Source: Marinilabilia rubra (lineage in GTDB: Bacteria; Bacteroidota; Bacteroidia; Bacteroidales; Marinilabiliaceae). From it: a DNA stretch of 64,000 bases. Under the pieces are notes generated by a model that did no database searches, had not been told where the DNA came from, and saw only the letters and a program-made list of their open reading frames with translations. The stretch covers positions 372,001 through 436,000 of the forward strand of contig NZ_QEWP01000003.1 of NCBI RefSeq assembly GCF_003121985.1, given 5' to 3'. Positions 3,101 to 16,581 of this stretch are shown here, piece after piece. The stretch's first letter is position 1; every line of letters begins with the position of its first letter. The translations under genes were made by a program, and so were the position numbers.

Positions 3101-3625
3101 GCCTATGGGTCTTACGGTTCAAGAGTGGCTCAGACCAATGGATGGAAATCCACATGGACAGACATTGAATATTACCGGGCCGGAGGTAAGGATTTGATGC
3201 TGTTTTATGAACAAGCCGGAGGAGGGCGTGCCGAAATGTACCGGATAAATGCCGATGGTACCCTGGGTGGTAGAATAGCAACAACAAGTAGCTGGCTCTC
3301 TAAATGGTCGGATATTGAATACTACCGCGCCGGAGATAAAGACATGATGCTGTTTTACCAACAAGCCGATGGCGGTATGGGGGCGATGTTTGAATTGAAA
3401 GAAAATGGCACCCTGGGGAAAAGGGTAGCCATGACTAAAGGATGGAGAGCCACATGGTCGGACATTGAATATTACCGCGCCAACGGAAAGGATCTGATGC
3501 TGTTCTACGAACAAAAGACGGGCACAGCCGAAGTTTATGAGATTTCACCCAATGGCGGACTGGGAGGCAGAGTGATGCAGATGAAAGGCTGGCGAAAAAC
3601 CTGGTCGGATATTGAAGCTTACTAG
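110..3625 (+). CDS. Large secreted protein with ten propeller-like repeats
   Basis: The protein has 1171 residues with a clear signal peptide (about residues 1-19, ending ATFA before QTQ), so it is exported. Residues about 20-560 are a unique beta-rich region without a family I recognise, followed by a mixed helical stretch (about 560-660). From about residue 663 there are ten copies of a ~50-residue repeat with the pattern LMLFYEQ..G..EMY, then GTLGGRV, then GW..TWSDIEYY. They form two blocks of five separated by a ~25-residue linker near residue 905. Five blades of about 50 residues resemble the architecture of tachylectin-2-like lectin propellers; that is inference from repeat number and size, not a proven homology. 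No membrane anchor or obvious T9SS C-terminal domain is visible. A strong terminator follows, so it is probably a single-gene transcript. Ligand and function are unknown. Confidence 0.9.
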   Translation: MRLKITLLLLVLASATFAQTQKVNIKGFGEISATKKADNQYELDLNKYGNFIATGTLDPLAVKIETTIENLREFPGYKLYEKLDLQEIELNIGQNGLTIDASLDTKKNFGDLCKMLKIPNPQMGVSIAVSKTKFKLEGELDFEDDPIIINVVPDFSRFTLENLGVEATAEAGEGNAELSLGFAVQTRWKPTQWDPDIQSVTEFSYNLTTNELSAAASMTDTWSNPMLLSELLKPNSVEFSNVAAALDWPVGAPAPSGFGFTVGKAKFFDLEFGAFLAMTPTDKKIAIQAERNQITMNDFSRILRNGFGLKVPDLFPDNVYIKDVVILYSPTGGEVGEFEVQQGFILKGKANILDAATAQIHYFANLEEGFFMDYRIEADLKEALMKELRKVKPLEPVMDKVLSTFQLRKVHTHLEAGMDLDMSGSTAVAFDVFGKSHSFDMQATLKPKDIIDAIISKVKEQGKVMEIAGKIAGTVGDASQKAYGIASNAFNNARKELGTVARHTHGKEAAKSVGSLITNAVKNGDISWENKSKTKCDEECVPNLARNMARPMLEGNNDAVLSFYRDVYPELTLIEGSSPAETLNLRKDLIWDKWNKLTEKIDEDWKSIIYDKTYIRFYIKPSSATNGGKIYRRLIREQRTEHQKFRKFLFQKMMTDKSTLPSWVFYEASAGSGEFYKMNLDGSLGTKFASTDGWRTTWSEIEYYSANGQNLVLFYDQANGGVAEMYKVKDDGTLGGRIASTSSWLSTWSDIEHYRAGDKDMLLFYQQADGGMGAMYELKANGTLGKRVAMTKGWKGTWSDIEYYSAKGKDFMLFYEQANGGAAEMYSINSNGTLGGRVAATKGWRSTWSDIEYFQMGGKDLMLFYEKKSGTGEVYEITPNGGVGSRVMSFNNWDKSWNDIEPGNLNSIDQQISWLKNNWRSLSAKMSLSSLLFYENTSGTGVLHGVNSNGSLGAQITETDGWRKTWSEVEYYKAGGKDMILFYQQKDGGYAEMYTVGAYGSYGSRVAQTNGWKSTWTDIEYYRAGGKDLMLFYEQAGGGRAEMYRINADGTLGGRIATTSSWLSKWSDIEYYRAGDKDMMLFYQQADGGMGAMFELKENGTLGKRVAMTKGWRATWSDIEYYRANGKDLMLFYEQKTGTAEVYEISPNGGLGGRVMQMKGWRKTWSDIEAY

Positions 3626-3670
3626 AAAAAGGGGGCCTTGCTTTTTGGTTTCATAATTGGTTTTATTAAC

Positions 3671-3709
3671 ATCCCTGACAGGGTTCTCGATCCTGTCAGG
3701 GATTTTTCT
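3671..3709 (+). terminator. Rho-independent terminator after the repeat-protein gene
   Basis: A perfect hairpin with arms ATCCCTGACAGG and CCTGTCAGGGAT is followed by a T-rich run. It lies about 45 bases after the stop codon of the upstream gene. Confidence 0.85.
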
Positions 3710-3718
3710 TTATTATCC

Positions 3719-3905
3719 CGTACCTACGGCACTCACGATGTATTTTCCCTGATCTTTCTACCGATATGCCGTCCCTCCGGGACTTTAAAAATAGGGGGTT
3801 CAATCTTAGGATTTTACATTGAGCCAAAGAAAAGAGGCCCGTTAGGGCTGAAATATTGGTAGAAAATGAGGTGAAACGAGGATAATTTAGTCCCGAAGGG
3901 ATGGA
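3719..3905. repeat. Dispersed palindromic repeat R1, copy 1
   Basis: This ~185-bp REP-like element carries several short hairpins: GTCCCTCCGGGAC near the left end, GCCCGTTAGGGC in the middle, and AGTCCCGAAGGGATGG at the right end, which pairs with the left arm. Related copies lie at about 6805-6970, 16582-16665 (left half only), 17008-17200 and 18391-18577. The rest of the 3626-4276 gap holds no gene I can support. Confidence 0.8.
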
Positions 3906-4276
3906 AAATAATGATTAAGCAGGACGTGAATTGTCACGGAGGCTGGTAGCGAGGGAATTTTTTCTGCCCCTTCTGCGCCTCTGCAAGATGTCTTCTTTCT
4001 TTTAAGGGCCTATCGAGTGCTTATCAGCTATTCATCAGTATAAAATCAGACTTTAACTTTCAATAGCGTTTTTTATTAGAGATTGCTTTGGGGTGATGCC
4101 TTCGCAGTATCATCGCCCAAACAAAAATTGCAGGACGAAACAAAATCACTTCAATGCAAAATCCCGAACTTTCAGGAAAATAAACTACATTTGAGCTGTT
4201 CAACGTACCGAAAATCCACTTCATAATTCAACCTCCCGGCACAACAGGCCCCCCGTAATTCATTCCCCCCAATACA

Positions 4277-4780
4277 ATGCTAAAAACAACTATGAGTAAA
4301 CTGCTAAAACAACTGAAAAACAACCGAAAGATCGTTTATGACCAGCAACCCAATACCAGCAGACGCGTCTGGATAATAGAGGCTGACGGCACCAGAAAAG
4401 TACCTACCCCTCAGCAATGCCTTGCCGATCTTTTTAAAATTTCAAAAACCTATGTTGCGCACAAGGTGTATGATGACTTTGTGGAAATCTACAACCATAC
4501 TTCGTACTCAAACCTGACAAGTGCTTTAAGCTTGATTGACACCATTACGCCTTCCTATTTGCATGGCGATCAGATGTTGGTGGAACAGTGGTTTTCGGTG
4601 ATGTGTGCCGAAATTATCGCATCAGAGAACGAGAAAAATGCAGTTTCCTTAAAACGAAAAATACGACTTGCTATTTATCAGGTGTTGATCCTGCGGATGC
4701 CTGCTTCCAAAGCTGCCGGTTTCTGCAATGGCAAAACCGACTCAGATCTGGAAAGCACCTTGAACACCCTTGAATTTTAA
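4277..4780 (+). CDS. Hypothetical protein, 167 aa
   Basis: I do not recognise the family. The product is a soluble, basic, mostly helical protein without a signal peptide or membrane segment. A basic N-terminus (MSKLLKQLKNNRK) is followed by a segment with VPTPQQCLADLFKISKTYV and a helical C-terminal half. Two starts are possible, ATG at 4277 or ATG at 4292; the second gives the more usual MSKLL start. It stands alone between repeat-rich intergenic stretches. Codon use looks coding and the frame is open for its full length, so it is probably real, but it could be specific to a narrow lineage. Confidence 0.6.
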   Translation: MLKTTMSKLLKQLKNNRKIVYDQQPNTSRRVWIIEADGTRKVPTPQQCLADLFKISKTYVAHKVYDDFVEIYNHTSYSNLTSALSLIDTITPSYLHGDQMLVEQWFSVMCAEIIASENEKNAVSLKRKIRLAIYQVLILRMPASKAAGFCNGKTDSDLESTLNTLEF

Positions 4781-8636: not shown

Positions 8637-11600
8637 TCACCCAATCATAGCATTTTCATTAACTTCTTTAATTACCCGGATGATGTGATCCTGTTCTTCA
8701 TCCTTTGGAAAGAGCTCAAAGAGACCATTATCGTCAGCATTTTTGAAGGAATAGGCCAGCTCGGGCAGCTCAAGGAAGCCGACCCGGGTAAAATGTTCGA
8801 CAATCATTTTTACAAACTGAAGTTGATCTGCGCTCAAATTACCTGAGTCCATAAACTCCGAGAAAGCTTTTTGAGTGGCTTCCTGATCCATGCCAATGAT
8901 GCTGCGAATAAATACTCCCAAGGGTTTGTTACCAAAAAAACGAATGTAGTCTTCCCTGGTACCAATATGAGAATCAATAAAAATGAGACGCTCCAGTTCG
9001 TCAAGTTCTTCGGGAGTAAGCGGGGTATTCTTTTTCAGTTTCTGAATGGTCAGGTGATCCTCATTTTCGCGAATATAGGTTTCCACCTTAAGTTTGTACG
9101 ACTCACTTTTGGTGTATCCAATGGGCCCGTCTTTTACCACTTTTACTTCGATTATTTCGTCGGCAAAATCGGTATTGTAGGTCAATGCTTCTTCTTTGGG
9201 GAGATATTTTAGAAGATCTCTCAGACTTTTTCGGATGGATTCGAGTTTATTGTAAGATTTTTCGGTCCAGAAATTGTCGTTCTGAATGGCCTCAATCATG
9301 GGGCGTTGCCGGGCTACATCATTAATGTTAAGCAACCTCATCAGTTGTTTGCCAATCCCTCTTACCGTATCTTCATATCTGTCCTGGGTCGGCTTCTCTT
9401 CAATTACGGCCAGTTGAAAGTTTTGCATGAGCAAATCGAAACGTTTGGCCATTTCGTCTTTTTCAGGAATGTAAACAAGGGGAGCAATATGATTGAAAAG
9501 CTCAAAGATGGCTTTGTCATCCAGATGATTCCAAATTTCCCGCTTGTTGTAGGTTTCTACATATTTAAGCTCCATACGAACCCTGAAGTTCTCTTTATTC
9601 AAACTTTCCACACGCTTGAAACACCAATCCAGAAGCTGCTCTCTTTGCTCCTGATGGTAATCGTCATGATAGGGCTCTTCCCGAAAAGCTTCAGCAATCA
9701 GAATGGTGGTTTTAAAAATTTTAATGGTAAGGGACTCAGATCGTCCAGGTTTCCTGCCATCGGGATTGAGTTTGAAAAAATTAAAATTACGACAGAGGTC
9801 AAAAACATTAAAAAATTTCTTGTCTTTGCCCGGCGCAAACAGGTCTTCACACAACCTGGTACCCCGCCCAAGCATCTGCCAAAACTTGGATTTACTGTAA
9901 ACCGGCTTAAATAGTACGAGGTTGACAATTTCGGGAACATCCACCCCTGTGTCGAGCATATCTACCGAAACTGCAATTTGGGGCTGCTTCTCTTTGATGG
10001 AAAAATCGTCCAGTAAATCCTGTGCATACTTCTCGTAATTATCAATGATGCGCAAAAATTTATTGCCGTATTCGGGGTACATCTTATTAAAACGCGCTTC
10101 AATAAATTCAGCATGCCGGTGACTATTGGCAAAAATGATGGTCTTTCCCAGCTTGTCTCCCCCCTCAACTTTCAGTCCATGGGTCATGAGGTAATCCAAA
10201 GCCTTATCGACAGTATCCTGATTGAATAACCAGTTGTTGATGGCACTGCTGTCTATCTCCTTGGGAAAGTACCCCGACTCATCCCGAAAGGTCTCTTCAT
10301 ACCGCTCTTTCTCCTCTTCACTTAAATCATCGTACTTAATGCCGCGGGTCATGAATCCCAGGTTCACTTCGAGGGGGACATGGGGTTTCAGATAATTTTC
10401 TTTAACCGCTTCGGCCAACTCGTAATCGAAAGTGGGAATGCCCGTTTCCTCTTCAAACAGTTCGTAGGTATCATGGTCGGCATCGTCCTTTGGTGTGGCC
10501 GTTAACCCCAGCATCAGGGCATCGAAATAGTGGAAGATGGCACCGTATTTCTGGTAAACCGACCGGTGGGCTTCATCGACAATGATAAGATCGAAATGTC
10601 CAACGGAATACAAGCGTTCGTCGCCCGACCGCACCCCGTCGATGCTGTTCATGATCGTGGGGTAAGTGGAAAAGACCAGGCGCGTATTGGGTTCTTCCTT
10701 CTCTTTGGTGAGATTAACGGACGACAAATGGGGCAAAAGTTTATTGAAATTCCGTTGGGCCTGTGTCACCAGAGCATTTCTGTCGGCCAGGAAGAGCACC
10801 CGTTCTATCCAACCGGATTTAAACAAAACATCTACAAAAGAGATGGCTGTACGTGTTTTACCGGTTCCGGTGGCCATTACCACCAGGGCTGCCCTGGAGC
10901 CGCCCCGGAGTCCGTCCGGGGTTTCTTTCACAAATTTGTCCAGCACACTGGCTATGGCCAGCTTTTGATAAGGCCGGTTGGTAATTTCATTGCTGATGGG
11001 TTGCTGTCGAGGATCAATCCTGTCCTTGCGGCGATGAACCAAAGCCTGAAGCTCATCCCGGGTATAAAAACCATGTACTTTGCGTGGCGGATAAAAACAG
11101 TCGTCCCACATTTCGGTATCAAACCCGTTGGTATAGTAAATAACGGGACGCTGACCAGTCATTTGCTCCAGACAATTGGCATACAGCTCGGCCTGCCGCT
11201 TGCCCTCGTTAATGTTTCGCGAAGCTTTCTTTGCCTCCACCACAGCTAAAGGCAGTCCGTTGTTGCCCCACAGAACATAATCGGCAAAACCTTTTCCGCT
11301 GGGATTTGCAGAAACGGGCATCCCCGTTACAGGATATTCCTTTGTATTAGTGGCATTGGGGTCCCATCCGGCTTCCTCGAGCATGGCATTGATGTACAAT
11401 TCCCGGGTTTGTTGCTCCGAATATTGTTCGGGAGGCAGTTCGATGGGCTGATTTCGCTCCTTTCGCTCCTGTATCTCTGAAAGCTGGTCTTTTAGTTTCT
11501 CAATTTCCGATTCAGCCTCGAGCCGTTTCCTCCGCTCGTCTGCAGCCACCTCAATTTGTTGCGACAGCTGTTCCTCCATCTGTTTGAGTTCCCGGAGGCT

Positions 11601-12038
11601 TTTCTCTTTGGCACCCACTTTGGGGATAACGCTTTCATCAAAATCACCAATTTCAGGAGGAGTTTCGCTGTACATTTTGGCGGTCCAGCTTAAAAACCGG
11701 AAAAGAAACCGAACCGTGGCCATGCTTACTTTCCGGTCTGTTTTCCCATTATGAACGGCGTTGTTTCCCTGTTTACGGATGTACTCTATATTGCTGAAAA
11801 CAGAAGGTGGAATAATTTCTCTGAAAGAAGGTTCGGCCATGCGGGCAGCCAGTTTGGTTTGGTAGGGTTGGTTGAGGTACTCTTCGTTTTCGTACAACCA
11901 GTTAACCGTGCTTTCCAGGCACAAACGCGCATAAAAAGCTGCCGTAACGGGTGCTGTAATGGCTGATTTTTCGGCTTCTATGGCCTGTTTCATAAGAGCA
12001 GGCCACTCGTCCCGGAGAAAGAGAAAGTTAGATGGCAT
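8637..12038 (-). CDS. hsdR: Type I restriction endonuclease subunit R
   Basis: This is the motor and nuclease subunit of a type I restriction-modification enzyme, 1133 aa. Domains in order: an N-terminal DUF4145-like helical domain (about 15-110), a charged coiled coil (about 140-195), the HSDR_N nuclease domain with DYVLWGNNGLPLAVVEAKK (about 253-271, PD-(D/E)xK type), then a superfamily 2 helicase with ATGTGKT (about 389), DEAH (about 487), LTATP (about 512) and QMLGRGTRL (about 740), and an EcoEI_R_C-type C-terminal domain. All motor and nuclease motifs appear intact. It is the last gene of an hsdM-hsdS-hsdR order on the minus strand but is separated from hsdS by 900 bp of tandem repeats, so it may have its own promoter. 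Confidence 0.97.
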   Translation of the reverse strand: MPSNFLFLRDEWPALMKQAIEAEKSAITAPVTAAFYARLCLESTVNWLYENEEYLNQPYQTKLAARMAEPSFREIIPPSVFSNIEYIRKQGNNAVHNGKTDRKVSMATVRFLFRFLSWTAKMYSETPPEIGDFDESVIPKVGAKEKSLRELKQMEEQLSQQIEVAADERRKRLEAESEIEKLKDQLSEIQERKERNQPIELPPEQYSEQQTRELYINAMLEEAGWDPNATNTKEYPVTGMPVSANPSGKGFADYVLWGNNGLPLAVVEAKKASRNINEGKRQAELYANCLEQMTGQRPVIYYTNGFDTEMWDDCFYPPRKVHGFYTRDELQALVHRRKDRIDPRQQPISNEITNRPYQKLAIASVLDKFVKETPDGLRGGSRAALVVMATGTGKTRTAISFVDVLFKSGWIERVLFLADRNALVTQAQRNFNKLLPHLSSVNLTKEKEEPNTRLVFSTYPTIMNSIDGVRSGDERLYSVGHFDLIIVDEAHRSVYQKYGAIFHYFDALMLGLTATPKDDADHDTYELFEEETGIPTFDYELAEAVKENYLKPHVPLEVNLGFMTRGIKYDDLSEEEKERYEETFRDESGYFPKEIDSSAINNWLFNQDTVDKALDYLMTHGLKVEGGDKLGKTIIFANSHRHAEFIEARFNKMYPEYGNKFLRIIDNYEKYAQDLLDDFSIKEKQPQIAVSVDMLDTGVDVPEIVNLVLFKPVYSKSKFWQMLGRGTRLCEDLFAPGKDKKFFNVFDLCRNFNFFKLNPDGRKPGRSESLTIKIFKTTILIAEAFREEPYHDDYHQEQREQLLDWCFKRVESLNKENFRVRMELKYVETYNKREIWNHLDDKAIFELFNHIAPLVYIPEKDEMAKRFDLLMQNFQLAVIEEKPTQDRYEDTVRGIGKQLMRLLNINDVARQRPMIEAIQNDNFWTEKSYNKLESIRKSLRDLLKYLPKEEALTYNTDFADEIIEVKVVKDGPIGYTKSESYKLKVETYIRENEDHLTIQKLKKNTPLTPEELDELERLIFIDSHIGTREDYIRFFGNKPLGVFIRSIIGMDQEATQKAFSEFMDSGNLSADQLQFVKMIVEHFTRVGFLELPELAYSFKNADDNGLFELFPKDEEQDHIIRVIKEVNENAMIG

Positions 12039-12298
12039 CTAAGGTGCTTTTGTTTAAATCGATTTTAGTTCAACAAAATAGTAATTTTTGTCGTTTTTGG
12101 TGGAATGATGGGACGTAAAAATAGTTTAAACGCAGAGATGCAAAGGCGCAGATGTTTTATTGGGAGAGGTTGTAACCAATTTGCCACAAGATATAGACAA
12201 TGGACAAACCATTGCATGCTCGTTTCCTTTGATTTATTTTTATATATTACGTTTCTGCCGCAGCTCCGCAGCTTTTCTTCTTTATTCATTAAATTCCT
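12039..12298. other. AT-rich spacer upstream of hsdR
   Basis: This holds the presumed hsdR promoter region and a fragment with ACGCAGAGATGCAAAGGCGCAG, a motif class that also occurs near 16025, 26800 and 34045. No gene is supported. Confidence 0.5.
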
Positions 12299-12828
12299 CT
12301 ACCGTTCCTTCGCCGCTCTGCGGCTATAAATTACTGATTATTTGCAACTAAAACCGCGGAGCGGTGTCTTGAGCGGTAAAACTACCACCGCGAAAACCCC
12401 GATAAACCGCAGAGCGGTGACGGAGTTGTAACTAAACCATGGTAATACGATTTAAGCAGGATCACGCTATATGAACTACCGTTCCCTGGCCGGTCTGCGG
12501 CTATAAATTACTGGTTATTGCCAACTAAAACCGCGGAGCGGTGTCTCGAGCGGTAAAACTACCACCGCGAAAACCCCGATAAACCGCAGAGCGGTGACAA
12601 AGTTGTAACTAAACCATGGTAATACGATTTAAGCAGGATCACGCTATATGAACTACCGTTCCCTGGCCGGTCTGCGGCTATAAATTACTGATTATTGGCA
12701 ACTAAAACCGCGGAGCGGTGTCTTGAGCGGTAAAACGACCAACGCGAAAACCCCGATAAACCGCGGAGCGGTGACAGAGTCGTAACTAAACCATAACAAT
12801 ACAATTTAAACGGGCATGACCAGTATTC
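12299..12828. repeat. Three tandem copies of a 177-bp repeat
   Basis: Units begin at about 12299, 12476 and 12653, each with CTACCGTTCC followed by a CTGCGGCTATAAATTACTG segment. Every unit contains the palindromes ACCGCGGAGCGGT and ACCGCAGAGCGGT (the third has ACCGCGGAGCGGT twice) and ends in GTAACTAAACCATGGTAATA. Units 1 and 2 are nearly identical; unit 3 diverges at its end. There is no CRISPR-like spacer structure. The array separates hsdS from hsdR. Confidence 0.9.
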
Positions 12829-12944
12829 GAAATAAAACTACGTTGCATAGTAGCTAAACCCCGGAGGACATTTTTCCACCAGACTCAACCTAATGAAACT
12901 TCTCGTCACAGCCCCTCTGCGTTTAGGCCACTTTTAACACCTCT

Positions 12945-14069
12945 CTACAACTCCCCCTTAAAAGCTTTTTGCACCAACGCATTAAAAAGATCTTCGTTTT
13001 CCTGCATGCTTTGTTTGAGCAATGTCTTTTGGGCTTCTATGTTTTGGACGATTTGGGCGAAGTGGTTTTGGAGATTTAACGGTGGTAGTGGTATAGAAAG
13101 ATTCTTCAATTTTTCTTTTGATATATTTGGCATTGAACCAGCACTTCCTGTAGCAAGCTTCTGGATTTTTCTTCTGAAATTCCTGTCATTAAAAAGAAAG
13201 GAAGTAAATATACCATTTAACAATAATGGCTGGTATTTTATTCTAAAAATAGTATCCGGAAGCAACAATTTAGGAGGGGTTTTAAAGACATAAGCACAAG
13301 CACCAACAAGCTCTCGGGTATTCTTTCTTGAAAACAAAAGGTCATTTGGTTTTACTTCAATATTTTCTTTGGGAGATAATGAGTCCGGTAATTTCTTGTT
13401 CTTATTATCTAAATAATTTCTTTCTGAAACCGCAGACAAAGTAAGTATTGCCCAAGTATTATTGCCTTTTCTGGGGCTACTTTCACATTTTGGACTCCAA
13501 CCACTTTCGATTCCATCAATGACCCCACCCAAGTTAACTTCTTCCCACCCCTTCGGATTGGTCACCGGATCGCCAAACATATCCAGGAAGGTAGCTTGTA
13601 ACAGCTCCTCGTAGGCAGCCAGTTGCTGCTTGCTTTTTTGGCGCAGGGCATCGGCTTTGTCTAATATGGTGGCAATGCGTTTTTGTTCGGGTAGTGGGGG
13701 GAGGGGGATTTGAACCCTGTCTAATCCCAGTTTTGTTATCTGTGGCTGTGCTGAACCAGAAATGCAATCTTTCAGACTGGTATTTTTCAGATAATAATAT
13801 AGATATTTAATATACACATCCTTACTGAGACTATCCAAGGCCATTGCATTGCCATTGATATAAGAATAAGGCTCTGAAATATTAACACTCCCGCATGAGG
13901 CACCTCTACAGGTTATCAACAAGGTTTCTTCTTTATGATTAAATTCAGAATACCATCCAATTTTTCCATTTGCGCCATAAACCGAATATCCTTTCTCGGT
14001 AAAATCTTTCATCGAAATAGTCTTCCATTGCTTTGGCCTGCAAATATCTGTCAAGCTAACTAATTTCAT
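12945..14069 (-). CDS. hsdS: Type I restriction-modification specificity subunit S
   Basis: This 374-aa subunit selects the DNA target for HsdM and HsdR. It has the two-half architecture of the family: TRD1 (about 1-125), a central conserved helix (IPLPPLPEQKRIATILDKAD, about 125-165), TRD2 starting after FGDPVTNPKGWEEV (about 175-320), and a distal conserved repeat (IPLPPLNLQNHFAQIVQNIE through the C-terminal FKGEL). Both halves appear intact. Its ATG overlaps the TGA of a 23-codon frame that resembles the end of HsdM, which suggests that this hsdS was recombined in together with a piece of another hsdM. No second hsdS cassette or recombinase lies nearby. Confidence 0.95.
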   Translation of the reverse strand: MKLVSLTDICRPKQWKTISMKDFTEKGYSVYGANGKIGWYSEFNHKEETLLITCRGASCGSVNISEPYSYINGNAMALDSLSKDVYIKYLYYYLKNTSLKDCISGSAQPQITKLGLDRVQIPLPPLPEQKRIATILDKADALRQKSKQQLAAYEELLQATFLDMFGDPVTNPKGWEEVNLGGVIDGIESGWSPKCESSPRKGNNTWAILTLSAVSERNYLDNKNKKLPDSLSPKENIEVKPNDLLFSRKNTRELVGACAYVFKTPPKLLLPDTIFRIKYQPLLLNGIFTSFLFNDRNFRRKIQKLATGSAGSMPNISKEKLKNLSIPLPPLNLQNHFAQIVQNIEAQKTLLKQSMQENEDLFNALVQKAFKGEL

Positions 14070-14137
14070 CCCAGCAACCCTCCCAATTCATTCATTAGCT
14101 CATTGCGTTCGCTCCCTTTGAAGTCTAAATATTTCAT
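14066..14137 (-). pseudogene. Duplicated 3' end of hsdM (23 codons)
   Basis: The frame starts MKYLDFKGSERNELMNELG and stops at a TGA overlapping the hsdS start (ATGA). Its SERNELMNEL matches the extreme C-terminus of the HsdM upstream (SERDDLMNEL), and the bases are similar too (both contain TTAATGAATGAATT or CTAATGAATGAATT). I read it as the remnant of another hsdM copy, possibly retained for translational coupling to hsdS. Confidence 0.65.
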
Positions 14138-14234
14138 AAACGCCCACAGAGGGCAAAACGGCATAATTCTCATTACAATATTAATTATTAGCAAACAAAT
14201 TCCTGATTATTTAATATCATATGCGAGCGAGTAA

Positions 14235-14266
14235 TGACCAATTTGTTGAGGTCAACAAATTGGTCA
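14235..14266. repeat. Perfect 15-bp inverted repeat at the hsdM stop codon
   Basis: TGACCAATTTGTTGA and TCAACAAATTGGTCA are separated by two bases (GG). The right end includes the TGA stop of hsdM. There is no T-run after it on the minus strand, so it is not a typical terminator. It could be an operator, an mRNA end stabiliser or a recombination scar. Confidence 0.85.
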
Positions 14267-15820
14267 ATCATTCAGCATTTTATCTAATTCATTCATTAAA
14301 TCATCCCTTTCGCTATCCATTTTTTTAATTCGCTCCATAATGTCACCGGGTGCATCGTACTGCACCTCTTCGTAAACAATCTCCTGGTAGGTATTAAACG
14401 AGAGGTTGTAGTTTTCTTTCCTTATTTCATCGGCCGGCACAAAAAAGTGCTGGGCGGTGCGATCAGCACCAAAGTCCTTTAGCTCATCGGGAGCTGAGTG
14501 GGTTATTTGGTGGAACTTTTCGATGATGTCGGGAATATTGTTCTCTTCATGTTTGTAGGCCCTCAGCGACGGTAACTCCGGTTCGTTTTCATCAGGCTTG
14601 CCCAGCATTTCGCGTTTGTCGTCGAGACTGTAGCCATCGGCTTTCATGTCGTAGAACCACACTTTGTCGGTACCGCCGGTTCCGGTTTTGGTAAAAATGA
14701 GAATGGCCGTGGCCACTCCCGTATAGGGTTTAAACACACCTGAGGGCATGGAAATGACCCCCTGCAACTGGTTTTCGTCGATCAGTTTCTGGCGAATGGC
14801 CTTGTGGCTTTTGGTGCTTCCAAACAACACACCGGCAGGCACAATAACGGCACAACGGCCACCCGGGCGCAACATACGCAGCATCAGGGCCAGGAACAGC
14901 AATTCCGTTTTGGCACTCTTGGCGGTTTTGCCCAGGTTTAGTGCTTTCTTGAGACTTAGCTCGATGCCATCGTAATCCACAGAGCCTGTAAAAGGCGGAT
15001 TGGCCATAATCAATGAGAACTTTTCGCTCACTTCATTGTCGCCCGAAAGGGCATCCTTGTATTGCAACTTAGGATTGTCAATGCCGTGCATTTGCAGGTT
15101 CATGGCACTGATGCCCACCATGGTGTTATCGCTCTCAAACCCGTTGAACATACCGTTGTTGAAATGCTCACGGAACTCCTTTTTGTAGAATTCATCGGGA
15201 TAATTGTCGCGCAAATACTCCACAACGCTTACCAGGAAGCCGGCGGTACCTGCTGCCGGGTCGCACACCCACTCATCGGTTTGCGGTTGCATCAGGTCAA
15301 CCATCATGCGTATGATGTGCTTGGGCGTACGAAACTGTCCGTTAATACCGGCAGAAGCCAGCTTGGACAACAAATATTCATATACATCCCCTTTGGTGTC
15401 ACGGTCCTCCAGTTTTATCTTGTCCAACAGTTGCACCACCCGGTCCAGTAACTTAGAGCTGTTGATGTCGAAATTGGCATACCGCATGGTATCGGCAAAC
15501 AGACCGCCTTTGCGACCGATGTTTTTGATAAAGTCGAACACACCGCCCTCTTTGCGAAAGAGGTGGTACATCTGATTGGGGTCCCTGGTCTTAAACACAT
15601 TCCAACGCAGTTCACGTTGATCCTCATTGTAAATGGGGTCCTGAACCGCCATACCCAGTTTATTGGCCTGCTTTTCTTTCAACTCCTGTTGACGATCCAG
15701 ACTGCGGATGAACAGCAAATAGGTAATTTGCTTAATGATACTCAACGGGTCGGTCATTCCGTTTTGCCAGAATTCCTTCCAAATCTTGTCAATGTCGTTG
15801 CGCTGTTGTCCTGTGAGCAT
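14264..15820 (-). CDS. hsdM: Type I restriction-modification methyltransferase subunit M
   Basis: This is the 518-aa N6-adenine DNA methyltransferase subunit, active with HsdS. The N-terminal HsdM_N helical domain (about 5-130) includes DPLSIIKQITYLLFIRSLD. The catalytic domain follows with QFRTPKHIIRMMVDLM, the SAM-binding motif DPAAGTAGF (187-195) and the catalytic NPPF (274-277), all intact. The C-terminal helix SERDDLMNELDKMLND is the part duplicated just before hsdS. It is the first gene of the restriction locus. A G-rich heptamer repeat lies about 105 bases upstream of its start. Confidence 0.97.
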   Translation of the reverse strand: MLTGQQRNDIDKIWKEFWQNGMTDPLSIIKQITYLLFIRSLDRQQELKEKQANKLGMAVQDPIYNEDQRELRWNVFKTRDPNQMYHLFRKEGGVFDFIKNIGRKGGLFADTMRYANFDINSSKLLDRVVQLLDKIKLEDRDTKGDVYEYLLSKLASAGINGQFRTPKHIIRMMVDLMQPQTDEWVCDPAAGTAGFLVSVVEYLRDNYPDEFYKKEFREHFNNGMFNGFESDNTMVGISAMNLQMHGIDNPKLQYKDALSGDNEVSEKFSLIMANPPFTGSVDYDGIELSLKKALNLGKTAKSAKTELLFLALMLRMLRPGGRCAVIVPAGVLFGSTKSHKAIRQKLIDENQLQGVISMPSGVFKPYTGVATAILIFTKTGTGGTDKVWFYDMKADGYSLDDKREMLGKPDENEPELPSLRAYKHEENNIPDIIEKFHQITHSAPDELKDFGADRTAQHFFVPADEIRKENYNLSFNTYQEIVYEEVQYDAPGDIMERIKKMDSERDDLMNELDKMLND

Positions 15821-15924
15821 TTATTTATGTGTTTGTTTTTTTCAATACAAAAGAAGCAGAGTGTACCTTTATTTCAGTCTGCAAAAATAATTTTTAAATT
15901 CACGACATCAATACATCGTAACCG

Positions 15925-15955
15925 TAGGGTTAGGGGTTAGGGGTTAGGGGTTCTG
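15925..15955 (+). repeat. Short G-rich heptamer repeat
   Basis: About four units of AGGGGTT/AGGGTT run in tandem, followed by CTGGGG. Four runs of three or four G with three-base spacers could form a G-quadruplex on the plus strand. It lies upstream of hsdM. Confidence 0.8.
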
Positions 15956-16094
15956 GGGTCGGAGCAAATCAAAAAGAACCATGCAAGCATCAAAAGCCGC
16001 AATTCCATAATAATAAAAACTTTGCGTCATAGTGCCTTTGCGTTTAGGCTATTTTCAACCGGCTATGGGGCATAAAACTACTCAAAAAACCACT

Positions 16095-16328
16095 ATGCCT
16101 AAGAATAAACTCGCAAGTTTCCGTTACCGGGTTATCAACAATTGCCTGCGTAATACCGGAAGAAAATGGAACCGGCAGGACCTGATCAATGAGATTTCGG
16201 ATCAGCATTCACCGCAGCCTGACAGCTGGAAAATTCTCCCAGATAAATACGGTTCGAATCTGAGGGCATATAATTACACCCCCGGGCATGCACTTCATGA
16301 TCACCATTGCTCTGAGCATTTTTGTTGA
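16095..16328 (+). pseudogene. N-terminal fragment of a WYL-domain regulator
   Basis: Residues from MPKNKLASFRYRVINN through RKWNRQDLINEISDQ resemble the start of Bacteroidota WYL-domain transcription factors (which typically run RYR-ID-CL-N---RKWT-EDLID). After about 40 residues the similarity stops and the frame continues into unrelated sequence ending at 16328. The normal protein is over 300 residues, so this is a truncated remnant. It is surrounded by dispersed repeats. Confidence 0.55.
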
Positions 16329-16581
16329 CATTATACTTCGTCATAACTTAAAAATTTAGGTTTAAAAATCATTTATCGGTACAATGTTAAAGGAAGTGGG
16401 TGCAATGTTTTTGCACTGGAAATAAAAAAGATGTTTTCCATCTGATATTCTCAAAAACACCGCTCCTAAAAAAATAAACCAACGCCCTTAATCATCTCAC
16501 CATTAGAACCTATGAACCATAAAAAGAGCAACCATTTTATTGACCTCTAAAGGCAGTAGATTACATAGACGTGTGAAATAT

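Follow-up and report, generated by a model that had tools for sequence, protein, structure and literature searches.

In the EcoKI type I restriction-modification (R-M) system, hsdM and hsdS are translationally coupled via a 1-nt overlap of the two genes (PMC3510504, in excerpt). Type I specificity changes by exchange of TRDs or of hsdS, as in StySB, StySP and others, the crossover described being in an hsdS conserved region (PMC3874165, in excerpt), and phase-variable hsdS loci are known to carry inverted repeats (PMC7394358, in excerpt).

We examined a type I locus of Marinilabilia rubra that lies within 64,000 nucleotides of contig NZ_QEWP01000003.1, referred to here as the window. As in EcoKI, a stop-start overlap with hsdS is kept, but the EcoKI overlap is 1 nt and part of hsdM itself, whereas here it is part of a detached hsdM tail, hereafter the distal copy (PMC3510504, in excerpt). 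The locus resembles StySB/StySP in that the hsdS of a type I operon is a mosaic, its parts differing in their nearest relatives; their seam is in an hsdS conserved region, whereas the one proposed here is at the hsdM 3' end and would have left a duplicate (PMC3874165, in excerpt). With phase-variable hsdS loci it has in common the presence of repeats at the hsdM/hsdS junction, but here a direct repeat is involved, 29 nt long and 83% identical, and a second hsdS was not found (PMC7394358, in excerpt). No description of a duplicated hsdM 3' end was found among the titles and abstract openings listed from open-licence literature, which is a weak negative.

The operon and its two hsdM ends

The gene order on the minus strand is hsdM (15820-14264), hsdS (14069-12945), three 177-bp repeats, and hsdR (12038-8637). 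HsdM has N6_Mtase and HsdM_N domains (PF02384, PF12161) and matches the NCBIfam hsdM equivalog TIGR00497 under its cut-off (74 vs 243 bits). HsdS has two TRD/conserved-region repeats (PF01420, 4.9e-33), and HsdR has N-terminal nuclease and helicase domains (PF04313, PF04851, PF08463). From these domain assignments, the locus is apparently an intact type I restriction-modification operon (hsdM, hsdS, hsdR) of the ordinary kind. The features of the junction and of the surrounding genes are as follows.

8637-12038, minus strand: hsdR, 1133 aa; PF04851, PF08463, PF04313
12945-14069, minus strand: hsdS, 374 aa; PF01420 (4.9e-33), two Methylase_S stretches
14066-14113, minus strand: displaced second hsdM 3' end, SERNELMNELGGLLG*; its stop overlaps the hsdS start (ATGA); 12/15 residues shared with the L007, L008 and L009 tails
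14114-14137, minus strand: MKYLDFKG, the first 8 codons of the 23-codon frame; not hsdM-like, no counterpart in the relatives' tails
14138-14234: spacer of about 100 bp; no convincing relative
14188-14271, minus strand: 27-codon frame with its ATG inside the hsdM end (ATGATTGA), 8-base overlap; no Pfam match
14235-14266: perfect inverted repeat, 15-bp arms, 2-nt gap; starts at the hsdM stop; L035 has a similar hairpin in the corresponding position
14264-15820, minus strand: hsdM, 518 aa; PF02384 (9e-61), PF12161 (1.3e-13) by Pfam
14285-14314, minus strand: matching stretch in the present hsdM, SERDDLMNEL, with the exact 13-nt core

The genome (5.4 Mb in 59 contigs) has five other HsdM-like matches, at 28-33% identity. 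No second hsdS was found, the genome having one hsdS match at E <= 1e-20, a threshold that a very divergent copy would escape. Inverted repeats in 12000-15900 did not exceed 28 nt at 79%, and the locus does not have the form of a phase-variable (inverting) hsdS locus. The 177-bp unit is repeated three times in tandem at 12299-12829, between hsdS and hsdR, with copies 95% and 85% identical to the first. Immediately upstream of the hsdM start, at 15926-15958, is a G-rich repeat of the GGGTTA/GGGGTTA type.

The 23-codon frame plus stop at 14066-14137 on the minus strand reads MKYLDFKGSERNELMNELGGLLG*, and its TGA overlaps the hsdS ATG (14067-14069) as ATGA. Its hsdM-like part consists only of the last 15 codons and the stop (14066-14113). 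The C-terminal end of the present HsdM is SERDDLMNELDKMLND*. At the DNA level, 14085-14113 and 14286-14314 form a direct repeat with 24/29 nt identical (83%) at a spacing of 201, within which the 13-nt core TAATGAATGAATT is exact (14286-14298 in hsdM and 14085-14097 in the distal copy). The earlier note had claimed both a resemblance of this frame to the HsdM end and matching nucleotides, and the repeat confirms the latter. With the tail of L009, a related locus, the 15-residue end has a BLOSUM62 score of 62; in the six frames of the window, the other best places scored 36 (the tail of HsdM itself) and 25. Shortness of the frame and the lack of any relation in its first 8 codons might be expected of a chance similarity, but the maximum in 5000 dinucleotide shuffles of 14066-14263 (three frames) was 29, the best place in the window outside hsdM reached 25, and the position of the frame mirrors the junction in five relatives. 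Chance can be set aside with near certainty, and the claimed resemblance to the HsdM end stands.

The hsdM-hsdS distance is now 194 bp, and the two hsdM 3' ends are 201 bp apart. Because the two copies differ at 6/30 nt of the aligned shared stretch, this is not a recent perfect duplication.

Junctions and hsdS genes in related loci

The nearest hsdM loci, by HsdM identity, were L087 (86%), L009 (81%), L008 (81%), L007 (80%) and L098 (79%), from four genomes, L007 and L009 being from one assembly. The three closest named loci come from a Prolixibacteraceae MAG (two) and a Bacteroidetes MAG (one). In all five, hsdM ends LM[NK]ELGG[LM]L[GR]* with ATGA as its last four bases; for the four nearest, the 4-base overlap onto the following frame was computed, and for L098 it was read by eye from the DNA. 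The distal copy has 12 of its 15 residues in common with the tails of L007, L008 and L009, 11 with L087, and 10 with L098, and matches the closest relatives across the whole end including GGLLG*. The present hsdM lacks GGLLG*; it ends ...LMNELDKMLND*, stopping six codons past the shared stretch in a different way. Because five of five close relatives end GG[LM]L[GR]* in ATGA, the 23-codon frame is taken as the normal junction of the clade, and the present hsdM end as the odd one. By this comparison the frame is the hsdM-hsdS junction proper to the clade of this HsdM, and not that of a foreign hsdM type.

The present hsdM end, AATGATTGA, has the form of an 8-base overlap type. In a survey of hsdM ends, a 4-base overlap was the commonest arrangement (35/84 rows) and an 8-base overlap was second (9/84). 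The 84 rows, the window among them, were those having a next frame of at least 120 codons, most of these frames being unchecked as hsdS. Four loci had been fetched twice (L088-L091 repeat L010, L014, L052 and L074), and without them the counts were 34 and 7 rows.

Across the 30 nt that they share, the copies in the window are mutually nearest, with 6 differences compared to 8-13 between them and the five relatives. They were strictly nearest each other in 55% of bootstraps, with ties in 14%, which is weak support. An AGC (Ser) codon is common to both copies, and all five relatives have another codon there. The proposal of the earlier note that the tail came from a different hsdM, taken as a different kind of hsdM, was therefore not borne out, as the distal copy has the canonical end of its own clade and the copies are nearest each other, if weakly (55%). 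Nor does any of the five close relatives carry the duplicate, which the earlier note would have counted against exchange if relatives with different TRDs had shared it.

The searches made did not find a near-identical hsdM for this locus, a strain with the pre-event arrangement, or a donor. A class-wide search of 365 genomes at E <= 1e-170 returned only the genome itself. Viral contigs gave one match at 85% (L129), ending inside hsdM, and all but 1 of 2637 plasmid records were below 60% identity, a figure that concerns the hsdM match and not the junctions.

We then compared the hsdS genes. Among the loci compared, the N-terminal TRD (TRD1) of the window hsdS was nearest that of L022 (62%), a locus whose HsdM is only 52% identical. 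The central region/first conserved region was nearest L009 (85%), and the C-terminal TRD was nearest L087 (69%) and L007 (68%). By these nearest matches, hsdS is a mosaic, with TRD1 nearest L022 and the rest nearest its own clade.

Five pairs of loci, hand-picked among the pairs listed (728 pairs in all), were aligned side by side. In L058/L063, both labelled Intestinibacter bartlettii, a 185-aa HsdM segment is 99% identical and divergence begins 18 nt before the hsdM end. In L010/L052 (85%) the tail is common up to CTTAAAGTTTTGGAGG and the overlap type then switches, as read by eye from a display out of register. In L008/L009 and L040/L042 identity ends at the hsdM stop, with unlike sequence beyond, and L068/L070 differ only at the last codon of hsdM (again by eye, the display out of register). 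Pfam identified the next gene as hsdS in each of the ten loci run (L058, L063, L010, L052, L007, L009, L087, L035, L012 and L084); L008, L040, L042, L068 and L070 were left out of this check. As judged from the alignments of L058/L063 and L010/L052, related loci show hsdS being exchanged along with the final codons of hsdM.

A general rule of such exchange was not detected. Among 46 pairs with a common TRD1, resemblance over the last 18 nt ahead of the next gene did not exceed that in matched controls (mean excess -0.02; 18/46 pairs positive). The test covered 66 loci, leaving out L088-L091, loci without a next frame or with a short one, those with hsdM below 600 nt, and those with a gap above 60 or below -15, hence the window and L084. 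The pairs are distant, share loci and are not independent, and local events would escape. On these sequences it cannot be claimed that the hsdM tail generally travels with TRD1.

The spacer, the hairpin and a parallel in another locus

The strand from 14290 to 14040 folds better than shuffled sequences (z -2.6), and the hairpin at the hsdM stop is not followed by a T-run. Perfect hairpins whose arms reach 9 bp or more were found in the first 80 nt past the hsdM stop in 3/89 rows: the window, L035 and L050. The L035 hairpin is closely similar in sequence, and hsdM and hsdS are also separated there; the L050 hairpin has a different sequence. The hairpin core occurs once in the genome itself and in 2/12 other genomes (three of the 12 had been picked for an earlier match), and the longer pattern is absent from all others of 296 genomes.

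Hairpins of this type, with a core like TTGTTGA..TCAACAA, recur in Bacteroidota (14235-14266 in the window, L035 1585-1612, L111 at 1502-1531 and 1607-1630, and L113 1503-1528). Their settings are two hsdM stops, intervals between predicted genes (L112, L113), and in frame within dinD (L111). The L111 palindrome lies in a dinD gene (NF008573, 5.7e-27, under the cut-off of the model) and reads DQFVEVNKLI, and the plus strand of the window at the hairpin reads NDQFVEVNKLV. An origin of the hairpin as a dinD fragment was nonetheless rejected, as the L111 protein, used to search the window and the loci compared, gave no further dinD for the window, and the L112 and L113 palindromes lie between predicted genes.

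The junction DNA as a whole matched only the locus itself in its own genome, apart from its hairpin read on the other strand, and had no match in plasmids and phages. Among 393 genomes of the order (its own included; best 2 candidates per genome scored), 42 had a match at E <= 0.01. Outside its own genome, none extended beyond about 50 of 231 nt, and most were to an AT-rich stretch or the hairpin. The best non-hairpin match (L110; 36 nt, 89%, E 1.6e-6) lies inside a 224-aa frame unrelated to R-M, and another (L117; 30 nt, 90%) is outside any long frame; we put both down to chance. The 42- and 27-codon frames between hsdM and hsdS had no Pfam match, and Rfam gave none in 12000-16500. No integrase or transposase was found between the duplicated ends, the 194 bp containing no long enough frame, and a degenerate remnant is possible.

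To survey duplicated tails we used 95 loci, of which 90 had an HsdM match; two without a stop were dropped and L098 was added. In a scan of up to 1.3 kb past hsdM, 88 rows (one row being too short; the window and the four repeat loci counted) gave only two scores above 39: 71 for L084 and 62 for the window. Scores in the reverse-strand control stayed at or below 33, and the best score in 19 further loci was 39. In L084 (contig JAFZFY010000415.1, a water-buffalo rectum MAG), hsdM 3' end copies of 71 nt at 90% identity lie 1083 nt apart. Between them, at 3496-4649, are DUF3791, DUF3990 and a frame matching DUF3791 below the cut-off; hsdS starts after the second copy and is cut by the contig end. 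As in the window, the duplicated hsdM 3' end is between hsdM and hsdS, and the second copy closes a short frame with unrelated first codons. Unlike the window, L084 has 71 nt at 90%, a cassette between the copies, and an hsdS that does not overlap the second copy. The earlier note had regarded duplicates in unrelated loci as counter-evidence; the single one found is a tail of its own hsdM, and we read it as a parallel. Three loci (L135, L143 and L144) have a large frame (581, 588 and 476 codons) directly after hsdM and no duplicated tail, the comparison covering the frame next to hsdM; duplication is therefore not the rule.

Two other observations concern hsdM-adjacent gaps. The hsdM-hsdS gap of L012 (5591-5814) contains MNWKSLELREVGEITES, by eye resembling the remains of an hsdS start, upstream of the hsdS now in place. 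In L030 and L046 (both Mucilaginibacter) the gap encodes, right ahead of the next gene, a similar peptide end, RVNNGLKQY, possibly the remnant of another gene.

Origin and meaning of the second hsdM end

Homology-facilitated illegitimate recombination, in which homology is one-sided, is a known process. The explanation to which we incline, by a modest degree, is an untidy recombination that involved two alleles from one hsdM clade and left two hsdM 3' ends. Homology in the tail would have anchored one side of the event, the other side being illegitimate, so that the tail of one allele was placed beside that of the other instead of replacing it. The distal end, in the 23-codon frame, is the clade-typical one, still overlapping hsdS via ATGA, and the proximal end, used today, is DKMLND*, which runs into the hairpin and is parted from hsdS. 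An untidy tail exchange is a natural reading because exchange is seen in relatives and hsdS is a mosaic, and we infer that the scar stems from exchange of hsdS. The copies, nearest each other only weakly (55% of bootstraps), do not tell whether it was hsdS or the present hsdM end that came in later.

Counting for exchange are the junction typical of the clade, seen in five relatives, the loss of the hsdM-hsdS overlap, the clean exchanges elsewhere and the L084 parallel. Counting against it, no pre-event strain or donor was found, the spacer is without a convincing relative, tail and TRD1 did not detectably travel together in the survey, and genes adjoining hsdM without a tail duplicate are common. 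The clade relatives L008 and L009, moreover, differ in TRD1 and have identical tails, so exchange can be scarless. The AGC codon common to both copies and absent from the five relatives counts against import and favours an event within the lineage. It speaks for a less probable account, a small insertion or local duplication within the lineage unrelated to specificity exchange, by which the tail was copied together with some 170 bp of filler, the proximal copy, no longer overlapping hsdS, drifted to DKMLND*, and the distal copy kept the hsdS start context. That the copies are nearest each other also speaks for this account, but the bootstrap for their being strictly nearest is only 55%. The recurrence of the hairpin type in Bacteroidota (in dinD in L111, between genes in L112 and L113) means that it may be an inserted element; the single core in its own genome, its presence in 2/12 others, and the absence of the longer pattern from the others of 296 genomes make no multiplying element evident.

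Both GGGAGGG, eight bases ahead of the hsdS ATG, and the ATGA overlap are retained in the distal copy, and the proximal end has neither. An SD-like sequence is present in 17/35 rows with a 4-base overlap and so is not general. We infer that hsdS now starts from the detached signal in the distal copy, and this copy may survive as it carries the likely start signal of hsdS. Much less likely is a reading in which the 23-codon frame is kept as a translated leader whose stop re-creates the hsdM-hsdS stop-start coupling. The intact ATGA overlap and GGGAGGG agree with it, as do the coupling of EcoKI hsdM and hsdS via an overlap (PMC3510504, in excerpt) and the standing of the 4-base overlap as the commonest arrangement (35/84 rows), but just 17 of the 35 4-base-overlap rows have an SD-like sequence, and translation of the frame is putative. 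A translated leader would be compatible with an origin by untidy recombination, and the two are not exclusive.

A computed deletion between the two cores gives a 517-aa HsdM ending SERDDLMNELGGLLG* and overlapping hsdS by ATGA. More speculatively, and in our estimation unlikely, the hsdM 3' end could be a recurrent seam for new DNA, at which incoming pieces bring their own hsdM tail, so that two tails flank the newcomer. If so, the newcomer would be the gene cassette in L084, and in the window either hsdS or a decayed piece. Loss of the DNA between the tails (201 bp in the window) would restore the 4-base overlap, making the insertion reversible in principle and a switch of hsdM-hsdS coupling.

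The feature is probably a real, small scar in an ordinary type I system. The idea in the earlier note of specificity exchange through recombination in the hsdM tail is right in kind, given that hsdS is joined to another hsdM 3' end and that such exchange is seen in L058/L063 and L010/L052; it is wrong on a different kind of hsdM, its direction is unproven, and the TRD1-tail test (mean excess -0.02, 18/46 positive) speaks against exchange of this form as a general rule. Exchange of type I specificity is well known within hsdS, and how a whole hsdS or other cargo is swapped into overlapping genes is less plain. The duplicated hsdM tail would be a readable scar of such a swap. It suggests that the final codons of hsdM, in which the hsdS start signal is also located, can be transferred along with any DNA that follows them.
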